A stretch of 64,000 nt of DNA from Diabrotica undecimpunctata. Lineage: Eukaryota > Arthropoda > Insecta > Coleoptera > Chrysomelidae. Positions 20,355 to 30,860 of this stretch are shown one piece after another (the stretch's first letter is position 1; every line of letters starts with the position of its first letter). The DNA lies in contig NC_092806.1 in the NCBI RefSeq assembly GCF_040954645.1, forward strand, positions 79,481,141 through 79,545,140, in the 5' to 3' direction. A program made the position numbers and the translations under genes. A model generated the notes under the pieces. It saw only the letters and a list, made by a program, of their open reading frames with translations, was not told the origin of the DNA and ran no database searches.

Positions 20355-22002
20355 TTATATAGTATCTCTGCGTTTTCCACGCATATAGCAACGTTTGCAT
20401 CTTTTTTGAATAGATTTGTTCTTTCCTTCTTTTTTATTTGTAGATGGAACATGCATGTTACCCGCTAGTTGAGGCGATGGCAGTTGAGCAACCTTGTGTG
20501 ATAATAAATATTCAATAATTTTTATACGGTAGTTATATAGTGATTTTTTTTCTTCTGCATGTTTATTAAATAACAAATGAGAATTGATCACAAGCAATTC
20601 AATTATGTAAATTCCTATTTTTTGGTTCCATCTTAATGTCTTTCGTTCACATGAGTAGTATGAAAACAATTGGGAGACTCTGTCAACTCCACCCATGTAC
20701 TTATTGTACTCAATAATAGCTTTGGGCTTCACTGTCATCTGCCCTCTTCTATTTTGTATCTCACATAATTCCCCTTTATATTCTGTTGAAATCATAAAAA
20801 TCTCCCTCTTATCTTTCCATTTTTGCAGACACATATTGTTGGAGTATCTTGATACTAACTCACCTTGTACAATGCGCTTATTTATCAATTCTCTGGGAAT
20901 ACCTTTTCTATCACTCCTACATGTTCCAGTTATATATGTATTAGCAGCTAACAGGTCACGAGCTAACTGAACACTGGTGTAAAAATTATCAGTATATAAA
21001 GCATGTCCTTTATTAAGTTTATTTTCCATCAACTTAAAAACAACTTTAGCGGCATGACCTCGACCTCCAATATCAGGATCTTTAGCTCCAGTATATAATA
21101 GTAGCTTTTGAACCAATCCTTGGGGTTCACAAACCATATATACTTTCACACCATATTTGTGTCGTTTATTTTTTACAAATTGGCGAAACTGTAATCGACC
21201 TCTCCATAATATCATAGCTTCATCAATGCATAGGTTTCTTTCTGGATAATAGACGCTTTCCATGCGATTATTAAAGTAGTTTAAAAGAGGTCTTATTTTA
21301 TAGATACGGTCCACTGGTACTGGTTCTCCATCTTTAGGATTATCCGCAAAATGGAGACAATGCAAAATAAGTTGAAATCTATTACGTGACATGTAGTTTC
21401 GAAATAGTGGGATATTATAGAGATAATTGGTCTTCCAATAGTCTTCTATTCGAGGTAGCTGTATATTACCCATGTGAAGTAATAATCCGAGAAACACTTT
21501 CAATTCATCTTTGGAAACTGGATTCCATCGGGTTATTCTTGAATTTTCATTCACACCTTTTAGAAATAATTCTTCGGCATAATTGTTGGTTTTAGACACA
21601 AGCATATCGTATAATTGGTCAGTTACTAATAAATTGAAATAGGATATGGGGTCATCTAATCGGTCAATGTTTAAAGGAATTTCAGTTTTTGAGAAATTAA
21701 TATTTGTCTCATCCATAGGAGCTTCTATCCACTCATCATCTCCATTTGCTTGAATAGCGGTAACATCTAAATTATCGTTATCATGAATTTCATCATCTAT
21801 TATTTCCTCTGAACTGGACTCATTACAACTTTCTGTATCATCCTCACTACTTAACTCACCAGCAAATAACCTTTCCAGAGCTTCTTCTGATGTATATTTG
21901 TTCTTATATCTATAAAGAAAAATTCCAATTAGGAAATTGAATTTACCTATTGTGGAAAATTGCTTATATAACTTACTTTTTAGATTTTTTATAACTATTC
22001 AT
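20290..22002 (-). pseudogene. piggyBac-type transposase, nearly intact, C-terminal frameshift
   Basis: A short first exon (22002-21977, beginning MNSYKKSK) joins, through a GTAAGT donor and a TATAG acceptor, a long exon from 21909. Together they give about 526 residues to the TAA at 20355. After an acidic N-terminus come the three catalytic aspartates in CIDEAMILWRGRL, LYTDNFYTSV and YMGGVDRVSQL. The main frame stops just after CKRCYMRGKRRDTI. A different frame continues with CAVCEEKPYLCLDCF down to about 20290, so one base change removes half of the cysteine-rich zinc-binding tail that piggyBac transposases use for end binding. The rest has no stops. It is closest in layout to the PGBD-like genes of insects. 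Confidence 0.88.
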
Positions 22003-22670: not shown

Positions 22671-22890
22671 TACAATTTAAAAAATGAGAATTTTTAATCT
22701 TTATTCAAAACTTTAATATTTCCTGTTGGTAAAATGATTAAAATTCAGGTAATGTACTTAACAAACATTATAAAAATAATTTTTTCTCTTACAGACGAGA
22801 ACAAAAAAAATCATAAATTTAATTTTAATTAAAAAAATAATTATTGTCATTAAAATATAAATTAGCACGCCGCTGTTCTGGTAAACATAC

Positions 22891-23234
22891 TGAAATGATA
22901 TTTATTTATGTCTATTTAATTTATAATGTCTTGTTCTTATCTTAATTCATTAAAAGGCACAATAATTTATATCAATTTATTTAAACGAATAATACACATA
23001 ATTTATTTAGGCGAGCGTAACAATAAATATCGCGGCCGCGGGTCTTGAGAATTAAACTGCCCCTCCATATAAAAATGTTGTATTTATATATACGAAATCC
23101 TGATATACTAGAATAGTCGAGAACATCTAGTTGGAGGATTCACCATAATTTGAATCTAGATCCTTCGCCAAATTTCTACAACAAAACAGAATTATTAGTC
23201 ATCATATATTTAGGCCAGTATATTTATCGTAACA
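22891..23234 (-). repeat. 3' LTR of Gypsy element
   Basis: On the minus strand it starts TGTTACGATAAA and ends ATATCATTTCA. The Pol stop codon (TAA, 23224-23226) lies inside this LTR. Confidence 0.95.
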
Positions 23235-25704
23235 TTGCCCCCCTCTTAAAAGATGGTTCCTCCTGGAACCTTGTCGGGACTGGAACCGGAACTGTATGCT
23301 GGTATCGGCAACTGGACCCTCTTTTACAACTTCCAGTTGTATAAAAATGACAAGGGACGGTTTTCTCTCCGCACAAGGTACTTAGCGGATTGCAACAGAC
23401 TAACACCTGGACTTCGGTGTCTTTGAAGATCTCCTCCACCATATTTCGGATAACCCTCCAATCTAATTGGCGGCACTCCAACTTTGGCATGGCTAACTTT
23501 TGCACGTCGGACTCTAGTACGTGCTCTCTCAATTGAAGTAAGGCTTCCCATACATCTCGGTAGGTAGGTTGGTCACGGGCAGTGTCTTTTGTTACCAGGT
23601 AGAAAAGGTAACGTGATGCATCTTGGAGTTTCAAGGTTTTACCGGGAGCTGGCACTTGGCATTGAAGTTCTGCAACTCGACCAAACTTCCTTCGAAAGAC
23701 GGATGCCAACCCTGGTGCGTCTTTGATACTGGCCGGGATGGTAAGGGCCAGCGAGTAGTCATCGGGGAGCGCGAGTAGATCTTGCTTTTCTTCAGTGGTA
23801 ACACCATGTCTTGCTTTACCGGTACCTCCATAGGCACCCATGAATTCCTCAAACGTGAGGTCAGACACGTCTTGGACTTGGTTTACCTCCACTTCTTTAT
23901 CTACGTCGTGGTCACCTTCGAAAGACGCCAGCCGGTTATGGTGTACTATCATCGGCTTTCCCCTCGGAATCTTGCTTATTCGGTAGATGACATCGTTGAT
24001 CTTCTCCATAATTAGGTATGGGCCTTCCCAAAACTGCTGCAATTTGGGAGAACAACCTTTTCGCTTCTTGGGGTTATAGAGCCAGACCTTGTCGTTCTTC
24101 TTAAAGCAACCCTTTTCGGCTTGTGTATCGTACCGTTTCTTCATTCGGTCGCTAGCGATCTGAAGGTGGGAACGGACCAACTCATGTACATCGTCCATTC
24201 TCCTTCGTAATTCGGTCACATAATCTTCACCTGCTACATCTTCTCCAGGTCGACACCCAAATTCTAGATCACAAGGTAGTCGCATTTCGCGTCCGAATAG
24301 GACTCTGGCTGGTGTCTGGCCTGTTGATTCATTAACAGCAGATCTGTAGGCCATTGTGAAGAACGGAAGGTATTGGTCCCAGTCTCGCTGATGATCGGAC
24401 ACCATCTTTGTCAAATACTTGCCGACTGTCCTATTCATCCGTTCTACCATACCATCAGATTGCGGATGATATGCTGTAGTTCTTGTTTTCTTCTTGCCTA
24501 GTCTATCACATATTCCTTGGAATATATCGCTTTCGAAGTTCCTGCCTTGGTCACTATGTATCTCCAAAGGCACTCCAAATCGGCTGATATATTCTTGGAT
24601 TAACTTATCTGCAACGGTGGCGGCCTTCTGGTCTGGAAGTGCGTAAATCTCGACCCACTTAGTAAAGTAATCCATTACTACCAACATGTACTTGCCTCCA
24701 TTTTCACTTTCTGGAAATGGCCCAGCGATATCCAAAGCTATTCTTTCAAACGGGCTTCCAACATTATATTGTATCATAGGAGCTCTCCTTTTTCGGTAAG
24801 GCCCGTTACTCGTGGCACAAATAGTACATTTCTTACACCAGTCTTTTACGTCGTCGGAACTGTTCATCCAATAAAACCGTTCCCGAATTCGCTGAAGGGT
24901 TTTCTTTACCCCAAAATGCCCTCCCGATGGACTGTCGTGTAACTGACGAAGTACTTCGGCTATTCTGCTCTTTGGGATCACCAACTGTCTTCTCTTCTCC
25001 GAACCGTCATCATTTTCCAGGACTCGTTTGAGCAAGCCATCTTCGATGATAAATGAGTCCCACTGGGCCCAATACGTCTTAACTACTGAGCATAGGTTTG
25101 ATATTTCCTGCCAAGGTGGTCGACGGTTTTCCTCTTTCCATTTTCGGATTTTCTGTATAACTGGATCTCTCTCTTGTTCTTCCCTTATCTTAGTAGGCGT
25201 CCAGTCATCGTTGACAATCGTCGTTCTTAGCACTGCTGCTTCCTTGGATTCCGTTTTGTTGCAGTGGGAACACTCTGCTGGGCATGGCCTTCTGGAAAGA
25301 GAATCAGCGTTTCTATGGCTAACTCCGGCCCGGTGCTCAATCTTAAAATCGTATTCTTGGAGTCGTTCGATCCACCTGGCTATCTGACCCTCTGGATTCT
25401 TAAACTGCATCAACCACTTAAGGGCGGCATGGTCGGTTCGGATTAGAAACTTTCTGCCATAGAGGTATTGATAGAAGTGCTCTACTGATTTCACTACTGC
25501 CAGAAGTTCTCTTCTCGTGACGCAATAATTCCGTTCAGGTTTTGAAAGAACTTTACTAAAATATCCGAGAACTCGTTCCTGTCCTCCTTGAATCTGAGAC
25601 AGCACTCCTCCAATTCCCACATTACTTGCATCCGTATCTAAGATGAACTCTCCTTCTGGCAGTGGATACCCTAAAATTGGTGCTGTTATTAAATGCTTTT
25701 TCAA
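23224..25704 (-). CDS. Gypsy Pol C-terminal part: RNase H, integrase, macro domain, CCCH zinc finger
   Basis: This 826-residue frame is open throughout. RNase H: DTDASNVGIGG at about 22-32, RRELLAVV at about 64 and TDHAAL at about 91. Integrase: an H2C2 zinc site (HDSPSGGHFG, WCKKCTICA), the acids in LDIAGPF, HSDQGRNFE and QSDGMVERMNR (DDE), and a GPY/F-like module near WEGPYLI. Residues about 636-770 resemble a TARG1/OARD1-type macro domain: KQDLLALPDDYSLA, FRRKFGRVAEL, YLFYLVTKDTA, DQPTYRDVWEAL and KLAMPKLECRQLDW. The Lys of the LVTK strand, catalytic in TARG1, is kept, whereas the GCGLD loop with the catalytic Asp is altered. A CCCH finger (CHFYTTGSCKRGSSCRYQH, about 785-803) follows. The frame is separated from the RT frame by a one-base shift near 25700, so it probably belongs to a single Pol polyprotein. 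Confidence 0.88.
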   Translation of the reverse strand: MKKHLITAPILGYPLPEGEFILDTDASNVGIGGVLSQIQGGQERVLGYFSKVLSKPERNYCVTRRELLAVVKSVEHFYQYLYGRKFLIRTDHAALKWLMQFKNPEGQIARWIERLQEYDFKIEHRAGVSHRNADSLSRRPCPAECSHCNKTESKEAAVLRTTIVNDDWTPTKIREEQERDPVIQKIRKWKEENRRPPWQEISNLCSVVKTYWAQWDSFIIEDGLLKRVLENDDGSEKRRQLVIPKSRIAEVLRQLHDSPSGGHFGVKKTLQRIRERFYWMNSSDDVKDWCKKCTICATSNGPYRKRRAPMIQYNVGSPFERIALDIAGPFPESENGGKYMLVVMDYFTKWVEIYALPDQKAATVADKLIQEYISRFGVPLEIHSDQGRNFESDIFQGICDRLGKKKTRTTAYHPQSDGMVERMNRTVGKYLTKMVSDHQRDWDQYLPFFTMAYRSAVNESTGQTPARVLFGREMRLPCDLEFGCRPGEDVAGEDYVTELRRRMDDVHELVRSHLQIASDRMKKRYDTQAEKGCFKKNDKVWLYNPKKRKGCSPKLQQFWEGPYLIMEKINDVIYRISKIPRGKPMIVHHNRLASFEGDHDVDKEVEVNQVQDVSDLTFEEFMGAYGGTGKARHGVTTEEKQDLLALPDDYSLALTIPASIKDAPGLASVFRRKFGRVAELQCQVPAPGKTLKLQDASRYLFYLVTKDTARDQPTYRDVWEALLQLREHVLESDVQKLAMPKLECRQLDWRVIRNMVEEIFKDTEVQVLVCCNPLSTLCGEKTVPCHFYTTGSCKRGSSCRYQHTVPVPVPTRFQEEPSFKRGAMLR
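23235..23247 (-). other. Polypurine tract of Gypsy element
   Basis: The minus strand reads AAGAGGGGGGCAA directly before the 3' LTR. It is also coding, giving the KRGA near the end of Pol. Confidence 0.8.
23395..23799 (-). other. Macro-domain-like module at the Pol C-terminus
   Basis: Part of the frame above, residues about 636-770. The alignment with TARG1/OARD1 was made from memory of the family: shared features are K-x-DL near the start, SLA, the FxxKFG helix, YxLVTK, PTY, and a MP strand before the catalytic loop. The loop itself (ECRQLDW) is shorter and differs from GCGLD. ADP-ribose binding is plausible and hydrolysis is doubtful. Confidence 0.75.
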
Positions 25705-27425
25705 CGTTTAAAGGCATTTTGGCAGTCTATATCCCAGCGGTATTCTCTTGCTTCCTCTGTAAGTCGCGTTAATGGCTTAGCGATATCTGCAAACTTCTTA
25801 ATAAACCTCCGGTAGTAAGTACATAGTCCAAGAAAACTTCTCACTTGATGTTTGTCAGTTGGTTTTGGCCATTCCTTAATGGAATCGATTTTTCCCTTAT
25901 CCACGGCCACTCCTTCTTTACTGACTATATGACCCAGATAATTGACTCTACCTTGAAATAGCTGGCACTTCTTGGGGTTTAGCATCAGTTGGGCAGCTTT
26001 AAGTCGATTAAAAACGTTTTCTAAATTCCTCAAATGATCTGCGAATGTCTCTCCCAAGACGATTATGTCATCCAAATAAACCAGGCATGTTTTCCAAGAT
26101 AACCCTCTCAACACATTTTCCATAAGCCTCTCAAATGTCGCAGGAGCATTACAGAGTCCAAATGACATAACGTTGAATTGCCACAATCCAGGTCCTGTGG
26201 TGAAGGCTGTCTTTTCTTTATCTACTGGGTCCATTTCTACCTGCCAGTATCCAGACTTCAAATCCAAAGTAGAAAACAATTTGCTTCCAGCCAATGTGTC
26301 CAATGTGTCATCGATCCGAGGCAGAGGATAACTATCTTTCTTGGTAACGTTGTTCAGCAAACGGTAATCCACACAGAACCTCGTCGTTCCGTCTTTCTTC
26401 TTAACTAGGACCACCGGAGAGACCCATGGGCTCGTAGAAGGTTCTATCACCCCGTCTTTCTTCATTTCCTGAACAATCGTTTCAGCTTCCTCTCTTTTCG
26501 CCTGTGGTAATAGTCGAGCTGTTTGACGAATTGGCTTAGCATTACCAGTATCAATTTTATGCTTAACAACCGTAGTTCTTCCCGTCTTTCCTCCTTTCGG
26601 TACGAAAATATCACGATACTGCCGAAGAAATTCCCTTAATTTCCTTTTCTCCATCTGATTTAGAGACTGTCCTGCAACTGCAACCATTTGGTCGAATTTA
26701 TCGTTGGAATTATCAGATGTTGTCGCCTGACGGATTATGGATTTCACAGGTACACAAGTTCCTACTTTTGTCTCTTTTTTTATGGTCACTGGGTAGTCGT
26801 TGACATTGATAAGTCTCACAGGAATTTCCTTAGCCGAAGTCACCAATTCCTTTCCAATTATGATTCCACGGCCAACCTCATCGTCGTGGTTCCAAGGCTC
26901 CATCATAACAGGTCTTCCTTCGTCTACAATTCCCTGTAGTCGCGCTACTATGATCGTTTCGCTTCTCGCAGGCACGACTGTATCTTCTGTAATGGCTGCT
27001 TGCACAGTGTTGTCATTATGTGGATGGAGAAATACCTCCTCGTTGCCAACTTTGATTACCTTATTCTTAAAATCCAATTGGAATCCATGCATATTCATTA
27101 CGTCCATTCCTAATATAACATCCTCTTCGATGTCAGCAACTATAACAGTATGGACAAACTTTTCTGCCCCAATTCCCAATTGTACCTGGATTTCTCCATG
27201 AATGTTGGCATTTTCACCTGTAGCGGTCCGAAGTCGTAACCTCGTTGGTAACAGTTTCTTTCGGCTGTTTATAACTGTCGGGCGTATAATGGTTCTGGTC
27301 GCTCCGGTATCCACCAACAACGTATGCTTTTTACCATTTATTTCTCCATCTACATATACACTATCTTCACGACATTTCAAAGAAGCTATTAGTATGAGAG
27401 GGTCTTTGGAAAAGTTTTGGGTCGA
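25701..27425 (-). pseudogene. Gypsy protease-reverse transcriptase ORF
   Basis: The frame opens at about 27425 with no ATG at its start and ends at a TGA at 25701. It encodes a retropepsin (HTLLVDTGATRTII, then ILGMDVMNMHG), a linker, and a Ty3/Gypsy RT. RT landmarks are PIRQTARLLP, VSPVVLVKKKDGTTRFCVDYR, FSTLDLKSGYWQV, FNVMSFGLCNAPATFE, the catalytic VYLDDIIVLG and the thumb (YLGHIVSKEG, SFLGLCTYYRRFIKKF). It continues into the RNase H frame after a one-base shift near 25700, in a Gypsy motif that is normally continuous. Gag ends upstream in another frame, so expression would need a frameshift, or this copy has lost a base. Confidence 0.85.
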
Positions 27426-27450: not shown

Positions 27451-28152
27451 CTAGTTTTCCTGATGGTGAGTTTCTTGATTTGCGTCGTACCTAGGATGCT
27501 TACAGGAACTTCGTACGTGTCCTATTTCGCCACAATTCCAGCATCTTATGGTCTTCGTATTATTGCATGTAATACTTTTCATCATATTAACGAGCTGGTC
27601 AAGTTTATCTTCATCTCCTTCCTCTTTTACAGTCCTAACTTTACTGTAACCGCCAGAGGCCTGCGTAGCTGACTCGTATTCGAGGGCGGCGGATAAGACA
27701 TCAACCAGCGTCTTGTGACGAGCTAATCGCAGTGTTCTCTGCATTTCATGATCACGAAGACCATCAATAAACGTTTGAACGGCCAACTTTTCCATCATGT
27801 CTTCGGGAGCTGTTGGATAAGAATATCGTACTAATCTGGCAATATCTACCTCATATTCTTGAAGAGCCTTATCTTTCTTCTGTCTACGATTTTTAAGCTG
27901 TGACTGATATACATGCTCCAAATCTTCGTGGCCATATCGCATATTTAACCTCTTCTTAAGTTGTTCGAAATCATCCATCTCCTCTATGACTATGGTCTGG
28001 AGCACATCTAAGGCATCTCCTCGAAGAGCGATAGTCAGGTTTACAGTCTTTTCTTTTTCAGACCATCCATTCGCTCTTGCAGCTGATTCGAACTGTTTCA
28101 TGTAGTTGTTCCATGAAGATTTTCCGTCGAAAGTTGGGACTTTCACATGCAC
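27451..28152 (-). pseudogene. Gypsy Gag (capsid and nucleocapsid)
   Basis: The frame has VKVPTFDGKSSWNNYMKQFE, a retrotransposon capsid region (ALRGDALDVLQTI, QLKKRLNMRYG, YEVDIARLVRYSYP) and a single CCHC knuckle (CWNCGEIGHVRSSC). It ends at a TAG shortly after. It lies in the same frame as the SAP/coiled-coil ORF upstream, from which one TAA (28168-28170) separates it. The two were therefore one Gag protein of about 440 residues, unless the stop is read through. Confidence 0.82.
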
Positions 28153-28167
28153 AGAACCTCCACTTCC

Positions 28168-28782
28168 TTAAAATTTCGGCCGTATTTCCAACTTACATTT
28201 TGTCTCGTCTTGTTTTGTCTCTACTGTAATTGGATTGTTTCCTCTCTCTGCTGTCCCTGTTTCCTCCATCTTCCTTTCCATCTCTTTCCATATCTTTTCT
28301 TCGAAGGCCAACATATCGGCAGCAACTTGGTTTTTTAACGAAGACACTCTATCGTCAAGAGCAGATATCTCTGAAGTGACTTTAGAGATGTTAGCAGAAA
28401 CTTTGCTTTCCAGAGAAGAAATCTCGTTAGAAACTTTGCTTTCTAAAGAAGCGATGTCGCCGGATACTTTGTTCTCCAATGATGCGATGTCGCCGGAAAC
28501 TTTGGCTACATCACCAGAAACTTTGGCTACATCACCAGAAACTTTGGCTACATCAGAAGAAACTTTCGAAATATCGTCAGAAACTTTGTTCTCCAATTTC
28601 GAAATCGACGAGATGACAGCATCTTCAAATATATAAGTCTCTGGATCTAGACCTTCTTCTAGCAAAGCGTTCTTTAGTCGTTGGACTAACTCAGCCTTTT
28701 TTCCGGTAGAAGCTAATTCTCTGTCTTCGAGATGTCTTCTTAAATTCGTCACTGTGAGCTCATAAATCGTAGCCATTTTCAC
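28168..28782 (-). pseudogene. Gypsy Gag N-terminal extension: SAP domain and heptad coiled coil
   Basis: Starting from ATG at 28782, residues about 8-42 form a SAP motif (LTVTNLRRHLEDRELAST, then KKAELVQRL), a small helix-turn-helix that binds A+T-rich DNA in many nuclear proteins. From about residue 60 to 165 the chain has repeated heptads such as DVAKVSG and SLENKVSG, so a long coiled coil is expected. The heptads come from a 21-bp tandem repeat at 28499-28561. The frame ends at a TAA and continues into Gag in the same frame. A SAP module could tether Gag or the integration complex to chromatin; that is inference. Confidence 0.8.
28499..28561. repeat. 21-bp minisatellite encoding coiled-coil heptads
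   Basis: The unit CTACATCACCAGAAACTTTG plus one base is repeated three times, giving exactly one seven-residue heptad (DVAKVSG) per unit on the minus strand. Related degenerate units flank it on both sides (about 28390-28600). Confidence 0.85.
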
Positions 28783-28817: not shown

Positions 28818-29161
28818 TGAAATGATATTTATTTATGTCTATTTAATTTATAATGTCTTGTTCTTATCTTAATTCATTAAAAGGCACAATAATTTATATC
28901 AATTTATTTAAACGAATAATACACATAATTTATTTAGACGAGCGTAACAATAAATATCGCGGCCGCGGGTCTTGAGAATTAAACTGCCCCTCCATATAAA
29001 AATGTTGTATTTATATATACGAAATCCTGATATACTAGAATAGTCGAGAACATCTAGTTGGAGGATTCACCATAATTTGAATCTAGATCCTTCGCCAAAT
29101 TTCTACAACAAAACAGAATTATTAGTCATCATATATTTAGGCCAGTATATTTATCGTAACA
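28818..29161 (-). repeat. 5' LTR of Gypsy element
   Basis: 344 bp, differing from the other LTR at one position (A instead of G in TTTAGRCGAGCG). Confidence 0.95.
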
Positions 29162-29759
29162 ATACCCGCGAGAATACCGGACTGCTTATAATAATATACC
29201 ACAGTATATTGCTTAAAAAGAATCAGTAGGTTCACTCTGCCGCCAGTCCTTTGTTCTTCATGTTCCATTTTTTTCACGCGCATTACTTCCACGCGCAGAT
29301 AAATTCCAGTTTTTGATACACTGCTCAATATAATTTTTAATACACTGCTCGACAATAAATAGGAAAAAAGTGACTTGTGGCGACCTAAAATTTAATAATA
29401 TTTTCGGAATAATGAATACTTTCCTAACTTTAGTGTTTTCGACAATTATCAATAGTTTCCCAAAATAATTATTACTGTTTGTCCTTCAAAATGTATTAAA
29501 TATGTTGAATCCATCAGTTTTGAATAATCGAATATTAAATTTTTTGTATTTATTAGAAAATCACACTATATTCACTGTTACTGGTGAGAAATCTCATAAA
29601 ACGAAGAGCTAATGAGGAAACTAATTTCTATAGATGAAAAAATAATAATACATTCGAATTATAAATTATATTTTGAGGATTTGAATTTTACAATACCAGT
29701 TATAATAAAAATAGGATTATAAAAACACAAGTAGCGAACTATGAATACAAGTTAGAATA

Positions 29760-29880: not shown

Positions 29881-30202
29881 CAATCACAACTTATTAATAA
29901 CAAAATAATGAAATGAAAAAAAGTCATATAGCCTAAAGATCCCACTGCAGGATCACTACGTTCATAACGTAGTTAGTCAAACTTATATTTTTACGCACAT
30001 TTAAAATTGGGAGAATTTATATATATAAAAGGCTAGGATGACAAGTCACACTGTTTATTCAGTAAGGTAATTACGCCATCTAGGAAAGAAATCTGAACTA
30101 CCAACATCTACCAAAATTAAATGTAATTTAAGTAAAAGCTGTAAAAACGCTGTTGAGACAGAAAAAATACACATTTCGGCATTGGAGCGTGTGATACGTT
30201 AA

Positions 30203-30860
30203 CTGAAAGGTCACTACACAGTATCTTCAATATTAATGAACGTATCGCGACATACGAGATCTGATAGGGTACTATGAATAAAAATAGATTTACCATAAGA
30301 CAAATTTTGATTTTTTGACTTAAAGAAGGCCTCAGGTTCAGTACAAAATAAACAACTGATTGAATCTTAACATGCGACATGGCAAATGAAAGAGGAGGAT
30401 ATAAAGAATATATTCAGATAGAAAAAATAAACAAGGCGACTACTTAAAGGGCACTACGCAGTATCTTCAATATTAATGAACGTATAACGACATAAGAGAT
30501 ATGATAGGGTACTATGAATAAAAATAGATTTACCATAAGACAAATTTTGATTTTTTGACTTAAAAAAGGCCTCAGGTTCAGTACAAAATAAAAAACTGAT
30601 TAAATCCTACCATGCGACATGGCAAATGAAAGGAGAGGATATAACGAATATATTCAGATAGAAAAAATTAACAAGGCGACGACTAAAAGGGCACTACGCA
30701 GTATCTTCAATATTAATGAACGTATAGTGACATACAAGATATGATAGGGCACTATGATATATAAAAATAGATTTCCTTTAAGACAAATTTTGATTTATTG
30801 ACTTAAAGAAGGCATCAGGCTGAGTACAAAATTAATTGATCGAATGCTAACATGCGATAT
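30203..30860. repeat. 240-bp tandem repeat, about 2.7 copies
   Basis: GTATCTTCAATATTAATGAA occurs at 30221, 30461 and 30701, exactly 240 bases apart, and the whole unit is conserved between these positions with scattered changes. The third unit is incomplete. The repeat lies inside the P-like element and has no open frame. Confidence 0.92.

Follow-up and report, generated by a model that had tools for sequence, protein, structure and literature searches.

The window analysed here, a stretch of 64,000 nucleotides from the genome of the chrysomelid beetle Diabrotica undecimpunctata (NCBI RefSeq assembly GCF_040954645.1, contig NC_092806.1, positions 79,481,141 to 79,545,140 of the forward strand), carries on its minus strand a Ty3/Gypsy-type retroelement flanked by two long terminal repeats (LTRs), as found by a repeat search and by Pfam. 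In this element, the open frame that encodes the integrase continues into a macro domain of the TARG1/OARD1 type and then into a CCCH zinc finger; we refer to these two domains at the end of Pol as the tail. The features of the element are as follows, with positions counted from the first letter of the window.

28818..29161, minus strand: 5' LTR, a 344-bp direct repeat with TG...CA ends, 343/344 identical to the 3' LTR
28171..28782, minus strand: gag frame 1, SAP domain (Pfam SAP, 29.7 bits) and repeated coiled-coil-like units in 21-bp tandem repeats
27454..28152, minus strand: gag frame 2, Retrotrans_gag and zinc knuckle (Pfam)
25701..27380, minus strand: first open frame of pol, protease and reverse transcriptase (RT), with RVT_1 at about 25923-26405 (Pfam)
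25351..25659, minus strand: RNase H domain (Pfam RT_RNaseH, 121 bits)
23926..24957, minus strand: integrase, with H2C2 finger, rve core and C-terminal Integrase_p58_C module (Pfam)
23380..23790, minus strand: TARG1/OARD1-type macro domain, residues 639-775 of an 826-amino-acid frame (phmmer, fold matches, AlphaFold2 model)
23296..23352, minus strand: CCCH zinc finger C-x7-C-x5-C-x3-H, residues 785-803 of the same frame (Pfam PF00642, 29.3 bits; CPSF4-type matches)
23224..23226, minus strand: stop codon of Pol
22891..23234, minus strand: 3' LTR, a 344-bp direct repeat with TG...CA ends and one mismatch to the 5' LTR
22887..22890 and 29162..29165, unstranded: target-site duplication ATAC (4 bp) at the LTR borders

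Structure of the element and identity of its Pol tail

Protease, RT, RNase H and integrase follow one another in the Ty3/Gypsy order, between LTRs and a target-site duplication, and we regard the element as a young copy of such a family. Despite its nearly identical LTRs, the window copy is probably non-autonomous, because gag is split by a stop codon (its two frames share one reading frame according to the open reading frame coordinates) and pol shifts to another frame near 25.70 kb, after the RT and before RNase H, a point at which the relative P0001 described below has no interruption. The Pol stop codon lies about 10 bp within the 3' LTR, which means that the frame crosses the purine-rich stretch preceding this LTR.

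From just past the RT, a single frame of 826 amino acids (25,704-23,224, minus strand) stays open through RNase H, integrase, macro domain and CCCH finger. The initial annotation had claimed that the frame runs on past the integrase C-terminal module, and it does so for about 220 more residues without a change of frame; the macro-domain pattern that it described was also recovered, and ten motifs, those quoted earlier included, were located. Among PDB sequences, the macro piece matches TARG1/C6orf130 at E 2e-22 (phmmer; query residues 21-161 of the 218-residue piece). The AlphaFold2 model, a check that had been proposed at the outset, has a macro fold with a mean predicted local confidence (pLDDT) of 88.6, and the values are 89-98 in ten-residue blocks spanning the macro domain except its last few residues. 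In both sequence and fold, the closest relation is to the TARG1/ALC1-like macrodomains. A closer kinship to the viral MacroD-type macrodomains was rejected, their fold matches being weaker than that of TARG1. The Pfam Macro model (PF01661) gave no match for the window copy at E <= 1, and it matches 6/10 related proteins scanned, every one under its 22-bit cut-off.

The CCCH finger expected after the macro domain is present, with the spacing of its class (C-x7/8-C-x5-C-x3-H), a zf-CCCH score of 29.3 bits against a cut-off of 20.5, and a match to CPSF4-type fingers among PDB sequences at E 2.9e-6 (phmmer). The tail is part of Pol: it is in frame with the integrase, it lies within the LTRs and the target-site duplication, and it recurs in other copies and in relatives. 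Unrelated flanking DNA is rejected as its source, given its position inside the LTRs and the presence of the macro domain in all of the 30 integrase-selected copies that were fetched from the genome. No second copy of the tail was found in the window. Judged by sequence, the identity of the tail domains, their membership of the element, their recurrence in other beetles and their abundance in this genome can be taken as established. The window macro domain is of the TARG1 class in fold and descent, which is a statement about kinship and makes no claim to a TARG1 enzyme.

Copies and relatives of the fusion

The genome searched comprises 1.74 Gb in 2,867 contigs. With the macro domain as the query, 5,574 first-look candidates were obtained, and all of the 150 copies that were scored are 98-100% identical, with open frames of up to 1,852 amino acids and a stop inside the macro domain in 2/150. 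With the integrase piece as the query, 30 of 150 scored copies were fetched; in each of these the macro domain lies downstream of the integrase, and 25 span all 185 residues of the tail without a gap (five are partial or gapped). In ten copies, the two LTRs of each copy agree at 99.7-100% over the 268-351 bp alignable to the window LTR, which marks these copies as recent insertions; they were picked for an identical macro protein and long frames, and this sample is biased to young copies. The LTRs of the ten copies (L039-L058) are just 76-83% identical to the window LTR, although the macro protein is identical. Across 24 copies of the L069-L098 set, synonymous diversity in the macro+CCCH part is about a quarter of that in the integrase (0.022 vs 0.080). 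These two observations suggest template switching, or a recent replacement of the 3' end of the element.

A genome search with the related protein P0126 revealed a second lineage, which is 41-44% identical to the tail of the window element and in which integrase end, macro domain and CCCH finger again follow one another. When coelacanth OARD1 is the query, this lineage takes up ranks 2-10, nine loci with 91-97% identity to L020.

A search for the fusion in other copies and species had been suggested at the outset, and the fusion is indeed shared by both, on the evidence of these genome copies, of P0001 and of further beetle proteins. P0001 was the sole match among 1,094 candidates in the tail search (proteins of about 454-1,446 amino acids). 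It is a 1,339-residue pol with protease, RT, RNase H, integrase, macro domain and CCCH finger, open throughout, and its tail is 69% identical to that of the window over 89%. A profile built from four tails found 38 proteins at E <= 1e-3, of which ten (P0146-P0154 and P0156) have no retroelement or tail features and were treated as cellular or environmental. The integrase end, macro domain and CCCH finger occur together in Exocentrus and Aromia (Cerambycidae). Brassicogethes (Nitidulidae) has the macro domain and a finger with 3/4 ligands, Holotrichia (Scarabaeidae) and the planthopper Nilaparvata have the macro domain only, and Cryptolaemus (Coccinellidae) has the integrase end and the beginning of the macro domain; pieces of the fusion are found in Diabrotica virgifera, D. 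undecimpunctata and Psylliodes. For the comparison of residues we used the window and 29 proteins, 30 retroelement-type rows in all. Nine of these are chimeric or insufficiently long at the catalytic loop, and 21 are alignable; the upstream integrase C-terminal motif is present in 16/21 and all four CCCH ligands in 15/21. Scans with the tail and with a four-member alignment found no relative in viral contigs, and a scan of prokaryote genomes found none either, results that have no bearing on eukaryotes.

In P0134 (356 amino acids), the protease is joined straight to the macro domain and the CCCH finger, RT and integrase are absent, and both catalytic residues are lost; we take it to be a deletion copy or the product of a spliced RNA. 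The database names of P0021, P0132, P0141 (Diabrotica 'OARD1-like') and P0157 (a tachykinin receptor model) are misleading, because these proteins look like pieces of the retroelement or models containing one. Diabrotica entries named 'OARD1-like' should therefore be read with caution in annotation.

Catalytic residues and relation to cellular TARG1

According to passages in PMC9411070, Lys84 of TARG1 attacks and Asp125 assists, and DarG, in which the lysine is the one residue of this dyad still present, is active on ADP-ribosylated DNA. (Residue 125 is called Glu in a passage of PMC7050489; the sequence itself has Asp.) The initial annotation had stated that the lysine is kept and the Asp loop changed, and this is what the alignment gives: Lys84 is present in the window copy, and its second phosphate loop, in place of GCGLD, is a glycine-free segment shorter by two residues. 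Loop 1, MGAG in TARG1, is DAPG. Lys84 is found in 5/5 members of the group to which the window belongs (the window, P0001, P0008, P0122 and P0021); in this group the alignment is gapped at Asp125, and the Gly-rich loop is missing. Of the 21 alignable rows, 16 have Lys at position 84, three have Arg (P0123-P0125) and two another residue; ten have Asp125, four of them Aromia copies. Some relatives keep the complete Lys/Asp dyad. In the group that keeps Asp125 (P0126, P0127, P0128, P0131 and P0133), the cells invariant in OARD1 are retained in 68/95 cases in the loops and 111/200 elsewhere; in the window's group of five the figures are 41/95 and 109/200. P0126 matches TARG1 with 43% identity at 0.9 A (phmmer E 2.3e-31). 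In the second Diabrotica lineage, Lys84 is replaced by Arg and Asp125 is kept in 12/12 distinct places. Taken together, these states suggest that the module was ancestrally a complete TARG1 and later decayed in differing ways.

The earlier suggestion of a reader rather than an eraser is plausible for the window lineage, which has lost both Asp125 and the Gly-rich phosphate loop. It is not secure, since DarG works with the lysine alone and relatives of the element keep the complete dyad; canonical reading of ADP-ribose by the window copy is also doubtful, because both loops are altered.

The best place in the genome for coelacanth OARD1 is L059 (49% identity, E 2.8e-38). Its product has a long N-terminal stretch of low complexity, and MGSGIA, the lysine and GCGLD are all present in its macro domain. 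We presume from these intact motifs, and from the lack of a match to the integrase piece at this place, that L059 is a cellular TARG1. Further cellular TARG1 genes could be hidden, because the scored list is crowded with retroelement copies. L059 is a single open frame of 760 amino acids whose long N-terminal extension looks disordered, and its part past the macro domain may be a second, degenerate macro domain.

Of the 47 aligned rows, 13 (fragments, chimeras and near-copies) were left out of the trees. The unrooted tree has 36 rows. In it, L059 and P0146 from Exocentrus form a pair (support 97/92), and 18 retroelement rows together with the planthopper protein P0138 lie on one side of a 95/98 branch. 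The retroelement rows, P0138 and the two insect proteins of that pair are separated by a 96/91 branch from the vertebrate OARD1 and environmental sequences. This topology fits a capture from an insect TARG1; because the tree is unrooted, the direction is an inferred one. P0138 sits among the retroelement rows in the best tree, and grouping 17 or 18 retroelement rows without it is not rejected by the approximately unbiased (AU) test (p 0.16 and 0.28), so that neither a single capture nor multiple captures can be considered established. Distances in the integrase C-terminus and in the macro domain are only moderately correlated (Mantel r 0.38, p 0.025; nine members).

Possible origin and role of the tail

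We propose that a Ty3/Gypsy family captured insect TARG1 (OARD1) as the C-terminus of its Pol, and that the module was ancestrally an eraser of ADP-ribose and became, in the window lineage, a non-catalytic binding module. This is the reading that we favour, with its chances evenly poised. The captured gene would have been placed after the integrase, followed by the CCCH finger. The ancestral module may have been a working ADP-ribosyl hydrolase, stripping host-added ADP-ribose from element proteins, RNA or complementary DNA (cDNA) ends, or from silencing factors. In the window lineage, the catalytic and phosphate loops would then have decayed and left a non-catalytic binding module on the integrase, which might help to tether the pre-integration complex to targets that are ADP-ribosylated or consist of nucleic acid; the CCCH finger would be the part that binds RNA or single-stranded DNA. 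A role in ADP-ribose signalling is reasonable in the light of two leads: passages in PMC4695847 describe the repression of L1 by SIRT6 via mono-ADP-ribosylation of KAP1 in mammals, and a review (PMC7050489) mentions that ADP-ribosylation may serve as a mark on the RNA of transposons or viruses.

Several observations weigh against this proposal. The gag and pol frames of the window copy are broken; both Diabrotica lineages have an incomplete dyad (Lys kept and Asp lost in one, Lys replaced by Arg and Asp kept in the other); the unrooted tree leaves the direction of capture unproven; and P0146 and L059 are counted as cellular by sequence alone. The macro domain is also the less conserved part. 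The window and P0001 share 68% identity in it and 81-86% in RT, RNase H and integrase. In 36/36 pairs among nine members, the integrase C-terminus is better conserved (mean 72% vs 50% for the macro domain). In 24 of the 30 integrase-selected copies, the ratio of nonsynonymous to synonymous polymorphism (pN/pS) is 0.58 for macro+CCCH (0.47-0.73 in a bootstrap over copies) vs 0.049 for the integrase, 0.47 for the macro domain alone and 5.3 for the hinge and CCCH finger alone, where synonymous changes are very few; a macro stop occurs in 1/24 and an integrase stop in 0/24. In 21 of 30 loci sampled by similarity to P0126, the values are 0.24 and 0.12, and stops occur in the macro domain in 0/21 and in the integrase in 4/21. 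For whichever part served to choose the copies, the pN/pS value is probably shifted downward, and copy pairs are not independent. On these ratios, the tail is under some constraint among recent copies, clearly weaker than that on the integrase.

The same figures feed a serious rival, which we consider possible but rather unlikely: the macro domain may be a passenger or scaffold that keeps its fold, has no ADP-ribose function here, and persists by aiding the folding of Pol, the stability of the integrase or the nucleic-acid binding of the CCCH finger. The loss of the catalytic Asp and the Gly-rich phosphate loop in the window's group agrees with it, as do the better conservation of the integrase C-terminus in every pair and the excess of the tail's pN/pS over the integrase's in both samples. 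It is opposed by the retention of the fold and of Lys84, by several relatives with a full dyad and better-kept loops than the rest, and by a macro+CCCH pN/pS that stays under 1 throughout the bootstrap range.

A more specific form of the capture proposal, which we hold to be unlikely, is that the host eraser was used in Pol against ADP-ribose-based control of element RNA, cDNA, the integration complex or silencing, and that in some hosts it then became a pseudo-enzyme reading ADP-ribosylated or damaged chromatin and steering integration. It is improbable that the window-type domain is still an eraser, one that would strip ADP-ribose off nucleic acids by a DarG-like, lysine-only mechanism and so shield element RNA and cDNA: the retained Lys84 would allow it, but the second phosphate loop is shortened and lacks glycine, loop 1 has changed from MGAG to DAPG, and Arg replaces Lys84 in P0123-P0125 and in the second Diabrotica lineage. 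An artefact of chance similarity or flanking read-through, for which the silent Pfam Macro model might speak, is already refuted by the TARG1 match at E 2e-22, the position within the LTRs and the recurrence of the fusion in relatives and in 30/30 fetched copies, and its probability is practically nil.

Chromoviruses are Ty3/Gypsy elements with a chromodomain after the integrase, and the beetle element resembles them in having an extra chromatin-type module at the integrase C-terminus; it has a macro domain and a CCCH finger instead, and chromatin targeting is putative. It stands apart from TARG1/OARD1 of the ALC1-like class in that the domain sits in a retroelement Pol and that Asp125 and the phosphate loops are changed in the window lineage. 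The DarG antitoxin macrodomain (24% identity) is the partner in a bacterial toxin-antitoxin system. RNA-virus macrodomains (alphavirus nsP3 and others) and insect-virus macrodomains (Kadipiro virus VP8) share the macro fold in a viral genome; those of the alphaviruses give weaker fold matches and reside in replication proteins, with no fusion to an integrase. Kadipiro virus VP8 (A0A8E0KJF2) is the best viral structural match to the retroelement macro domain by E-value, with 30% identity, and is possibly another TARG1-like viral macrodomain. A reverse-transcribing element with a macro domain is also known from fish: a passage in PMC4977317, citing Basta et al. 2009, mentions macro-domain open reading frames in epsilon-like endogenous retroviruses. 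As described there, these are additional open reading frames in ray-finned hosts, with the macro class unstated; the beetle element has a Pol fusion with a CCCH finger in an insect Ty3/Gypsy element. In the titles and beginnings of abstracts of the open-licence literature (subscription journals and Repbase being outside this scope), we found no insect retrotransposon with a macro domain and no Pol-macro-CCCH fusion; the macro domain mentioned in PMC11642819 belongs to an aphid-virus polyprotein.

The module is borne by many recent copies in D. undecimpunctata. If the domain acts on ADP-ribose, its full-dyad, lysine-only and arginine variants would form a natural series for testing the change from eraser to binder, and ADP-ribosylation would bear on insect retrotransposons much as SIRT6 does on L1 in mammals, as described in passages of PMC4695847.

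Elsewhere in the element, the start of Gag (28171-28782, minus strand) combines the SAP domain with a tandem 21-bp array encoding repeated KVSGDVA-like heptads. To our knowledge, this combination is unusual for Gag. Two further features of the window are the following.

20355-21716, minus strand: open frame of 453 amino acids adjoining the element, with a full-length DDE_Tnp_1_7 transposase domain (Pfam E 6.7e-101), which we take to be of the piggyBac type
30202-30835: array of about three 240-bp tandem units (repeat search)
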